DNA of 64,000 nt from NCBI GenBank assembly GCA_029964075.1, contig CM057147.1:22155513-22219512 (forward strand), in the 5' to 3' direction. The stretch's first letter is position 1. Every line of letters starts with the position of its first letter. The DNA is from Patiria pectinifera (taxonomy: Eukaryota; Echinodermata; Asteroidea; Valvatida; Asterinidae). Positions 23,680 to 62,400 of this stretch are shown here, piece by piece. Position numbers and translations under genes: made by a program. Under the pieces are notes generated by a model, which was not told where the DNA came from, ran no database searches, and worked only from the letters and a program-made list of their open reading frames with translations.

Positions 23680-24011
23680 AAGACTTTTTCACACTAGAGC
23701 CTCTCAACCTGGGTTGAACTCAACCTTGGTCTAACCCAGTGCCGCCCCGGTTTGACTTTTTAATTTTCAACCCAACGTTCAAGCCTGCATCATTTCACAC
23801 TAGTTCTGTACCAACTGAGCATATTTGGCTTGGTTACTACTGTGTTACCCTGGCTAAAGTTTCAACCCACGTTGACAATTCAACCTGGGGTGAAATCAAT
23901 CTGAGGATTGACCCAGGGTTGGCGCAGGGTTGAAAATGTTCAAGTGTGAAATGCTGCATCTTTTCACCCCTGCGTCAACCCCGAAATTTGTCTATTGTGA
24001 AGAGGTCTCAA
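23680..24011 (-). mobile_element. CACACTAG foldback MITE, second copy
   Basis: TTTTTCACACTAGAGCCTCT at the left and TTGTGAAGAGGTCTCAAG at the right. The interior has the same TTCAACCC-type repeats as 17541-17907, in the opposite orientation and more diverged. Confidence 0.8.
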
Positions 24012-24568
24012 GTCCCCGCTCAATCTTGCTCCTGGCTGTTTAAGGCAGGCCACACAGCACCATCCACTGTTCCTACACAACCGAGTCCATAGATGCTTTC
24101 TACTGCAGCCATCTTGGAGGTGCGAGCTTTTGTTTCATAGTGTCTGCAAGAGTAGACCACTCGTGCATTCATTGTTGCTCAACAACAAATAACCAAAATT
24201 ATATAACTGACATACAGAATCCTTGTCATTCGATTGTTGGGACTCACATCACGTGACATACGTTATTGCTCCCATTCACGCCGGGGCTCAAAAAGTCCCA
24301 TTTGCCCATGGGGAATGGGTTTTACTATTCAACAGTTAGGATCAGCCTTGTTCCATGACGCGGCACTTGTGTGCAAATGCATGCTGGTGTGCGTGTTGAG
24401 CGTAGCGCGTATTGTTCCAAAGAGCCAGCACTACAGAGTCGGGTTGAAACATTTCGTGAAGGGGTGCTTTGGTAGAGAGAAATACATTTTCCACCAATTC
24501 TGTATTGAAATAAAAAATTCAAATATATCAAATGACAAGGATCTATATGTCAGTTATATAAAATAAAT

Positions 24569-24694
24569 ATTGAGTGGCTTTAAATTGTGAAATGGGAGGA
24601 ATATTATCACTCGGTAAAATCTGGATTTTTCCATTAAAAGTCCAGATCTTACCTTGCGATAATATTCCTCCCATACCACTCTGAGCCACTCAAT
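24569..24694. repeat. Inverted repeat of 126 bases
   Basis: ATTGAGTGGCTTT and ATGGGAGGAATATTATC at the left face GATAATATTCCTCCCAT and GAGCCACTCAAT at the right, with ATCTGGA/TCCAGAT in the middle. Confidence 0.85.
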
Positions 24695-25000
24695 ACATGT
24701 ATTTTTTATAGCACCTCAATGATGGCTGCTAAAAGCAAAAGACCATATGGCCTAAAGGCAAAAATATGGTTGTCTGTGTACCAAAGGTGTTGTATACCAC
24801 ATAGACTCTACATATGCCACTAAACCCCACCCAGCCTCCCCAATCAAATGTGAGAACAAAAAACAAGTACGCTCCTTTTATCTGATACTCATTTCCAGCT
24901 GCATGGGTTGTGTTGACACAATATGCTTTACACGAGTCAATCACTAAATAACAAAGCTCAAGTAAACAGAAACATGTTTTGTCAATACACCAAGTTTGGT

Positions 25001-25527: not shown

Positions 25528-25727
25528 GTGAATTTATGTAAGTTTTTAAAGTTGAACAAAGAATTTGACTGCAGCGGGGTTAGAACTTGTGACCACTGGA
25601 TTGCCGTTCCGGCACTCTACCAACTGAGCTATCCAGCCCTATGTTGGCGGTTCCCATTTTGTCAATGTCTTTGTTCAAGGGGCGCTAGAAGCCTGCTCCA
25701 GTCAATTTCTTTGTTCAACTTTGAAAA
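25528..25727 (-). mobile_element. tRNA-derived SINE, second family
   Basis: On the minus strand: AGGGCTGGATAGCTCAGTTG, then GTAGAGTGCCGG and a decayed B box, framed by TTTGTTCAACTTT. It lies within the inferred SELENOM 3'UTR, between stop and SECIS. The sister copy is at 31140-31302. Confidence 0.85.
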
Positions 25728-27730: not shown

Positions 27731-27943
27731 AGAATAAAATTAGTTGTGCATATGTACTTCAATACATACTTGCACAAACCAGTACACGCATATGTGCTCT
27801 TCCCAACGGGGTTTTCGAGATAGAGTGGTATAAAAATGCCATCTACATTGTACTGTCTGTGCATGGAGTCCAGACTCCATACAATAATTCATTTGACACT
27901 TCACTGCTAAAACCAGCAACGATAAAATTACGAAAACTGAAAG

Positions 27944-28105
27944 AAAATAATAATAATAATAATAATAATCGGCATTTAAGAACGCTCTTTTTAGTACACT
28001 AAATCACAATTTAACATTCCAAATACCATCTCAGCTGCTGCCTGTTAGGTGCAAGGAAGCTAAATCAATCACATAACCATCTCTGCCCTCACAGGTACCC
28101 ATTTA
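27944..28105 (-). mobile_element. SINE fragment, same family as 22345
   Basis: Reversed (TTA)n, then AAGGAAGCTAAATCAATCAC and CCTCACAGGTACCCATTTA, in SELENOM intron 3. Confidence 0.7.
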
Positions 28106-28190
28106 GAGTGGTATAAAAATGCCATCTACATATCTAAACAAAAACGTTTACCCCAAAATAAATCTGAAGTTATGAAAACACTGAGCCTAC

Positions 28191-31139: not shown

Positions 31140-31302
31140 TGGCTTTTGACTGGGGTCCCTTAAACAAAGACACTGACAAAATGGGGAACTACCAGTACTC
31201 AGTAGGGCTAGACAGCAAAGTTAGTAGAGCACCAGTACGGCAATACGGAGGTCGCGGTTCAAACCCCGCTCTAGTCAGTTTCTTTGTTCAACTTTAAAAA
31301 CT
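31140..31302 (+). mobile_element. tRNA-derived SINE, second family, sister copy
   Basis: GTAGGGCTAGACAGCAAAGT, GTAGAGCACC and B box GGTTCAAACCC, then TTTCTTTGTTCAACTTTAAA. It lies in SELENOM intron 2, about 30 bases from the selenocysteine exon. Confidence 0.85.
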
Positions 31303-31330
31303 TGTTGCAAATAACATGAAAGGATACTAC

Positions 31331-31398
31331 AGGGGCAGATCATGGGTTACAAATGCCTTGACTTCAGGCAGTCGGTTCAGCTGTCATCCACTGCAGCT
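31331..31398 (-). CDS. SELENOM: SELENOM exon 2: selenocysteine exon (C-S-G-U)
   Basis: The acceptor TTTTCCAG and donor GTAGTA bound 68 bases: 22 codons plus two bases. The reading is SCSG-U-QLNRLPEVKAFVTHD, then LP. U is TGA at 31384-31386. Directly after the TGA the frame stays open and matches the family motif QLNRL.EVKAFV, so the TGA is read through as selenocysteine, not a true stop. Known orthologues have C-G-G-U; here the second residue is Ser. The Tyr usually found after DLPL appears to be missing at the junction with exon 3. Confidence 0.93.
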
Positions 31399-49909: not shown

Positions 49910-50245
49910 TCAAAACACCATCTTTTTTTCCCTAATGATGATAGTTGTAACAGAGACATTGGTCGTATCTCCACAAGTACCCAATGCCTCAAGATACACC
50001 ATCCATTGAACTGTTCCGTCTTTTAGAATGAAAGTTTCGCCAATCGGCTTCCCTACGACAGATCGGTGGGACTTTCGTTCGATTAGATGCAGCACATGAA
50101 ACATCGTGGGACGCGTCGGTGATGGGGACGGTCGGCGGGTATGCTCGGACCCCGCCAGCTTCATCGCACCGTGGGCAGTGATGCCTGCACGAGCCTGAAA
50201 AGCCCTGCTGTGTGGGATGGGAAGCGTGGCCACAATGTCACTGAA
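49910..50245 (-). CDS. Coding-like reading frame after an acceptor site, unassigned
   Basis: After the acceptor CTGAGCAG, 111 codons stay open before TGA. The frame includes FSDIVATLPIPHSRAFQARA, TMFHVLHLIERKSHRSVV and GETFILKDGTVQWMVYLEAL. Amino acid make-up and the GC-rich third positions of its first half look coding. Possible exon partners at 51200-51402 (acceptor CTTTCTAG) could not be linked by phase. I do not recognise the product; it may be a gene fragment or chance. Confidence 0.25.
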   Translation of the reverse strand, partial: FSDIVATLPIPHSRAFQARAGITAHGAMKLAGSEHTRRPSPSPTRPTMFHVLHLIERKSHRSVVGKPIGETFILKDGTVQWMVYLEALGTCGDTTNVSVTTIIIREKKMVF

Positions 50246-59478: not shown

Positions 59479-62400
59479 CTGTATAGGAAAAAGAAAACAA
59501 CAACAAATGCTGTGAAAAAGTTGGAGAATTGTAAGATAATCATCAAAATTGAGTATAGACTGGTTTAACCAATAAGCGAACTTTGCTAGTATCTACTTAT
59601 TTACTTTTAGTAAAGGTACACGTATTTGATGACAACTGTACAGTGAAGTGACAGCCTGAGAGGTGCTCACCTTAATGTAGATGTGCGACGGCAACATGGC
59701 GGCAGTGATTTCTTTAGTCATCGTCGGGGCTTGCGGGGTGTTTAGCTGGAGCTCTGGAAGCTGGACATAGCCGGCAACCAATGGGTAGAGATTGTAGGAC
59801 AACGTCTGACAACTGGAGGGAAGGATCCTGAAAAACACCTGAGATGGAACACCAAACTAGGATGAATATGTAGTAGTCCAGTCCATCACAAGACCTCACA
59901 GGTCCAACACAAGTCCTCTCAAGTTCATCACAAGTTCGTCACAAGTCGTCCAGTCCCGACAAAAGGTTATTGCATCACTCGCATCATCAAAACTATTCAC
60001 GTGTTCAGCAGTAAAGAGAACTCGAAAAAGGGCATCAAAATTTGGAAGTGGTTTGAGAAGATGCTTTCGTGTGGATTTTAAGAAATGAATGTAATGCGGT
60101 CCTGGGAAATGGAGATACACAATCTCCCAAAATGATTGTGTTAACTCCATCGAAATAAATCTGAATCACAATCCTACAACTAGTAAACTTAGTACAAAAG
60201 CTCTGTATGAATGTGCAATTGATGATGAAAATTACAGCACACATAAAATGCCAAGTAAACAAGTCCTATGTGATATGTAAATAGATGCCATAGCTTTCTG
60301 TGTACAATTTGTATGGATCAATAAAACAAAGCATCATCGTGGTGATATAAAATAAAATTAATCCACTTGAGCCTGGTAGATGGGTGCTTGGTTACAAACA
60401 TGACACAGCTCAACGAAATGAGTCAGAGGTTACTGAGAGCTTCCTTTGAGTGATGTATTTCTTTTTAAGGGGCCGTTCACAATTATCAACATTTTCACGA
60501 GCGTACAAACCGTACGCTGGGGGGGACGGGGTTAATGGCCGCCGTACGTTTTTTTTTTTTTTTAAAATGTCGATATGTTTTCTCGCCCGTTAATGCCCGC
60601 CTAACGCCGATTTTTTTTTTTTTAAATGTCGATCTGTTTTCTCGCCCGTCGCCACAGCCGACAGCCGCAACCGATGCCGATCGAGCACTTGCCGAGCCGG
60701 TCGCGCCCCGCGCCAGGCCCCGCATTGCATCCCATGAACGTATTGTGTACAGCATGTGCAGCATTGTCCTACACACGTACATGAAAATGTACTGTATGTA
60801 CATGTACATGTATAGTCCGTATCCACTGCGTGTTTTTAACGGCCGGTGTCACATGTCATGGCCAAAAACTTGATCTACAAAAGTTACAAAAACCCTTGCA
60901 AGTGTCTATATATAGACTTGTGTGAAAAAAAAAATCAACATTTTTTTCGTACACTTTTAGGGGGGAGGGGGGGGGGTCTTGAAAAAAGTGTACTCTTTGT
61001 ACACTTGTGAAAATGTTGATAATTGTGAACGGCCCCTAACATAACGGTCCTCATATGTGCATATGTTAAGATATCAAATTGAGTGATACACATATTACAG
61101 AATGAAGAACTGAGCATGCCGTTTCTACTGCTATAAAAACCATATACAAGAAAAACAAAATGTCCAAAAAGACTCATTTCGAGGGGTTTGGTCACAACTC
61201 ACAAAAACGTTCCTGAATGATACCTACCTGCTTGTGGCCAGAGTACATGAATGCTTCACTGGCCTGCACGCTGGCCTCAATCGTCTGAACGATAGATGTC
61301 CGGTTGGAGATGGTGAAGTTGACAAACAGCGGCGACCGCACCACCCCGAAGGCGGGGATGTCTGTCTCAATGGCCAACGGGAGGGGCTGGATGCTGACCT
61401 CTGGGAGGGGGAGGGTGGTCTTGACCAAGGGGAGGTCATCATTCATGGAATCCCTTCAATAAGAGGTAAAATGCAAGGCATTTAGGAAAAATGAGATTGG
61501 GCAGATGTCGAAATGAGGGTTTGCAGCTCAGTGGATATTACAGTTTTCGGTAAAACTGTGTAAAACCATGCACAACCTTTTGATCACGAAACACGATTTC
61601 ATCTATTTAAACTCTAAACTCAGTCAGTTGACTGAACATTGGAAATTAACTACATTTCTTGATTTCTTCTAAATGACTGCAAACCAGACGGACTAATTGT
61701 ACGGCGTATTTAGCACCAGCATACTCTTTAATCCAAAATAGGTTTTTGATGATAATTTGGGAGGTTACATTTGGGAAAAATGCAAATGATCCTATATGCC
61801 TTTAAACACAACAATGAGATACCTCTTCCATTCCAGCTCACAGCTCCCCAGGGCAATGAGTCCAGTTTCAGGGTGACTCGGGGCTTGAACACAGACGCAT
61901 TCACTTGCATGCTCTTCATTCTTCAATACAACTGTCAAAAAAATATACAGTAACATACAGAATATAGAAAGACTAACACCGAGGATATAGCACGTAGTTG
62001 CCTTACTTTGACATTTTACTGCTATGAATTTTTTATTTCCCCCGGTTCTTTAAATGACCTGTGACCTTGCAGCTTTTACAAGCAGGCAATTACATATCTG
62101 CAGCAAAAGACAGCACATGAGGTGAAGTCGCCCAGTAAATGAGCAAAACGGCTATTTTATTAAAAATTCTTCTATTTCGCGACCATTAACAAATGCTGTT
62201 TATTTAAGCGTGGAGAAATATAAATGTTAAATATAAATATCACAGGGTGAAAGTAGACAAAGCAATATGCTCACATATATGGTTCTGTCCACACTAACGG
62301 TTACAAAAGTGTGACATTTAGAGGGAACCATGGACAGGAGTCGATACATGAAGTAACATGTTAAGTTTTCCATCTTTCTTCATCCAATATCTTGGTAAGA

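Follow-up and report, generated by a model that had tools for sequence, protein, structure and literature searches.

The window (the whole stretch of 64,000 nucleotides analysed here, part of contig C19 in a genome of 613.5 Mb and 1,020 contigs) holds on its minus strand a predicted SELENOM gene of four coding exons: exon 1 (32326-32201), which runs from ATG to a GT donor and encodes the start codon, a hydrophobic N-terminal segment (likely a signal peptide) and a variable linker; exon 2 (31398-31328), which contains a CSGU motif; exon 3 (28269-28191; HNIPFKHIGGADPDLLLLDKEGSIIK); and exon 4 (26863-26672), which ends in KDEL and the stop codon TAA (26674-26672). Joined, the exons make up 468 bases or 156 codons, in which the TGA of codon 47 and the terminal TAA are the sole in-frame stops. 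The three introns that splicing would remove (802, 3,058 and 1,327 bases) are all of the GT-AG type, and the frame is kept across each. Exons 2 to 4 were placed by the joining of frame and splice sites together with tblastn matches to mouse SelM, while exon 1 is proposed from its frame, its donor site and the hydrophobic N-terminus of its product, the same tblastn search of the window giving no match there. The ATG, which is the probable start codon, is preceded in frame by a stop. By hydropathy only, the N-terminus reaches a mean of 2.98 over residues 9-20; KDEL is C-terminal by sequence.

Downstream on the same strand lies a SECIS element (25146-25080), which begins 1,526 bases beyond the stop codon and folds into a long stem with a further small apical helix and carries AUGA, the loop AAA and CUGA. 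It matched the Rfam model SECIS_1 at 33.3 bits, 1.7 bits short of the gathering threshold (35), with an E-value of 0.00033 in 2,261 bases or 0.0093 when all 4,227 families are searched over 64 kb (by arithmetic, ~2e-6 per 64 kb for this one family), and is the one match listed for this model in the window. An AATAAA poly(A) signal (25006-25001, minus strand) follows 73 bases past the SECIS and is the sole AATAAA or ATTAAA on that strand between the stop codon and position 24000. A simple SECIS pattern scan of the window returned 444 candidates and ranked the element third; the two hairpins above it were not listed as SECIS by the Rfam search, so the pattern scan is unspecific by itself. Genome-wide, SECIS_1 gave no match at E <=0.001 among the 150 of 16,803 candidates scored, nor any match in the 14 controls; the window SECIS itself would miss this limit (~0.02 genome-wide, as scaled from its E-value), and the search is uninformative. 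In the excerpt of PMC3316567, the loop of the SelM SECIS is AA in vertebrates except placental mammals and CC in placental mammals.

The preliminary description had placed an in-frame TGA within CSG-TGA, with frame and splice phases continuing through it into a further two exons closing with KDEL and with a SECIS following on the same strand. The TGA was found on the minus strand at 31386-31384; the open frame resumes behind it, the phases are kept over the three GT-AG introns, and exons 3 and 4 lead to KDEL and the TAA. The SECIS was recovered as well, though below the gathering score.

Family assignment and the position of the TGA

Against Pfam, the predicted protein matched the Sep15/SelM domain PF08806 over residues 40-113 (E 4.8e-23, 81.4 bits; curated cut-off 26 bits). 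Exon 3 taken alone scored 19.7 bits (E 0.00088), below the cut-off, and exon 4 alone had no Pfam match. Among solved structures, just two matched at E <=1, namely 2a2p, Selenoprotein M (E 1.2e-30, 109.6 bits), and 2a4h, Sep15 (E 1e-4, 25.5 bits), so that closeness to SelM over Sep15 is here a matter of two structures compared, without a tree. The alignment to 2a2p, which we take to be the mouse protein, is gapless, with 53 of 107 residues identical overall and 47 of 95 after the selenocysteine position.

Moreover, a tblastn search of the window with mouse SelM, which is independent of the choice of exons, yielded 10 matches at E <=10, the top three being exon 4 (44.7 bits), exon 2 (35.8 bits) and exon 3 (30.4 bits), on the same strand and in the correct order (E 3.6e-9 to 3.4e-4), while the remaining seven had E-values of at least 0.71. 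The best match in 20 windows shuffled in two-base blocks reached 23.9 bits; thus the SELENOM signal exceeds what chance would give.

The in-frame TGA stands at residue 47, where exon 2 reads SCSG-TGA-QLNRLPEVKAFVTHDLPL. It aligns with the last residue of CGGC in 2a2p, which in that chain stands for the selenocysteine of CGGU. The part behind the TGA, taken alone, still matched SelM at E 2.4e-24, which is not expected of a chance extension past a real stop. Hence the codon very probably encodes selenocysteine.

A pseudogene, whether of SELENOM itself or of a homologue with cysteine, would likewise carry an in-frame TGA, in that case as a true premature stop. We consider this very unlikely on several lines of evidence: i) the TGA falls on the selenocysteine position of SelM; ii) the 155 codons before the TAA hold no further in-frame stop; iii) the three introns are intact, hence the gene is not a retrocopy; iv) the frame behind the TGA is conserved and continues to KDEL; v) the region downstream holds a SECIS together with a poly(A) signal; and vi) in a search of the genome with the SELENOM protein, all three candidates scored matched and all three lie inside the window, so that among the best candidates scored this appears to be the sole genomic copy.

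The sister family SELENOF (Sep15) has a claim of another kind, since PF08806 is common to both families and Sep15 did give a weak match. Yet SelM scored 109.6 bits against 25.5 for Sep15, and the motif here is CxxU, whereas SELENOF has CGU according to the excerpt of PMC10668967. Furthermore, a separate SELENOF-like exon is present in the genome: the search for PF08806 (six candidates scored; 0 of 14 controls) pointed to a single location, C10:20354789-20354914, which in reverse complement reads IQFKRGADPALKFLNEKNLVQETLSIEKWNTDTVEEFLQERL and which we named from a reading of that sequence; of that gene, this exon is the part recovered. The same search missed the SELENOM gene of the window, which is split over exons. 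We give assignment to SELENOF next to no credence, and both it and the pseudogene were rejected on this evidence in favour of SELENOM.

Probable selenocysteine insertion and the predicted product

A tRNA-Sec gene with anticodon TCA was found at C7:34298241-34298326 (78.3 bits), in agreement with ARAGORN. The 53 of 57,624 candidates scored included 13 weaker matches to the tRNA-Sec model (42.1-50.7 bits); the next-best, at 50.7 bits, is a tRNA-Ser, and at the three loci of weaker matches examined ARAGORN calls four tRNA-Ser. The model gave matches in 14 of 14 control genomes (above its cut-off in five) and is thus unspecific alone; what carries the claim is the TCA anticodon together with the distance in score to the next match.

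We regard it as nearly certain that the locus is an animal SELENOM with four coding exons and a long 3' UTR bearing one SECIS, whose UGA codon 47 would be read as selenocysteine to give a redox protein of the endoplasmic reticulum. SBP2, eEFSec and tRNA-Sec are recruited by SECIS elements in the general pathway. For this gene, the mRNA would join the four coding exons and carry the 3' UTR, the SECIS would recruit these three factors, and the ribosome would then read the UGA as selenocysteine. The product, predicted to be a small thioredoxin-like oxidoreductase whose active site is CxxU, presumably enters the endoplasmic reticulum and is retained there by KDEL; both its location and its redox activity are predictions from the encoded protein. 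The UGA sits 56 bases 5' of the exon 2/3 junction, and the transcript could therefore be a target of NMD when selenium is short.

That the gene is SELENOM, as the preliminary description had read it, is borne out by PF08806, the much stronger match to SelM than to Sep15, the CxxU spacing, the conservation behind the TGA, the SECIS in the 3' UTR and the genomic tRNA-Sec.

SelM has a signal peptide, and Fep15 carries the same Pfam redox domain as SelM and SELENOF. The window gene resembles SelM in its CxxU motif, its Sep15/SelM redox domain, its gapless alignment to the mouse protein, the SECIS in its 3' UTR and its hydrophobic N-terminus; its acidic C-terminal tail ending in KDEL lies beyond the part aligned with mouse SelM. 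Unlike the CGGU given for SELENOM in the excerpt of PMC10668967, its motif is CSGU. Among the related families, Fep15 is described as vertebrate-only in PMC3316567, which also reports SelM in all vertebrates of that study, and Table 1 of PMC3473315 lists SelM for Amphimedon (sponge), Nematostella (sea anemone), Capitella (annelid) and Branchiostoma (amphioxus). For a centipede genome, PMC4244043 counts 20 selenoproteins, each with a SECIS.

The gene is an ordinary animal SELENOM; its family, its mechanism and the annotation problem it poses are already known, and it leaves knowledge of SELENOM or of recoding unchanged. About 81% of predicted vertebrate selenoproteins are misannotated in Ensembl according to the excerpt of PMC12822975, and the corresponding text on SelenoDB 2.0 (PMC3965025) makes the same complaint of selenoprotein genes cut or skipped at the TGA by annotation pipelines. 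The locus is a clean, complete instance of an animal gene with selenocysteine recoding and is useful as a correct gene model; it also illustrates that raw sequence allows a frame interrupted by TGA to be interpreted correctly.

Repeats and other features of the window

A tRNA-like match at 25566-25638 scored 29.1 bits, just over the Rfam gathering score of 29. A tRNA gene at this position was rejected: ARAGORN found zero tRNA genes in the window and a second copy of the match lies at 31206-31277, so the match is read as a repeat. The repeat has inverted-repeat arms, and its two copies stand in opposite orientation, one in the SELENOM 3' UTR (25540-25727) and the other in intron 2 (31150-31303). 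We put forward, as a tentative and rather doubtful idea, that the 3' UTR of this SELENOM orthologue took up the repeat between stop and SECIS, which would have lengthened the distance between them to 1.5 kb with recoding still working.

Intron 3 contains an unexplained exact direct repeat of 28 bases (27821-27848 and 28104-28131). Past the SELENOM poly(A) signal lies a long palindromic hairpin (24555-24708) with 44-base arms that are 84% complementary; it is probably a MITE-like element, and the Rfam miRNA matches within it are all far under their gathering scores.

Elsewhere in the window, a possible C2-domain gene on the minus strand comprises 1163-1495, with a Pfam C2 match below cut-off (E 0.0027), and 2649-2873, for which neither Pfam nor PDB gave a match. 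A miR-278-like hairpin on the plus strand (50017-50089; 3' arm TCGGTGGGACTTTCGTTCG) reached 51.5 bits (E 1.5e-9), below the gathering score of 55. miR-278 occurs in protostomes and some non-chordate deuterostomes, a distribution that would speak against a chordate as the host and for which our literature search gave no confirmation. Two exons on the minus strand (59596-59856 and 61195-61455), presumably of a TRAPPC11-like gene, matched Pfam Gryzun below its cut-off (E 0.086) and Pfam Gryzun-like over its cut-off (E 7.7e-8).
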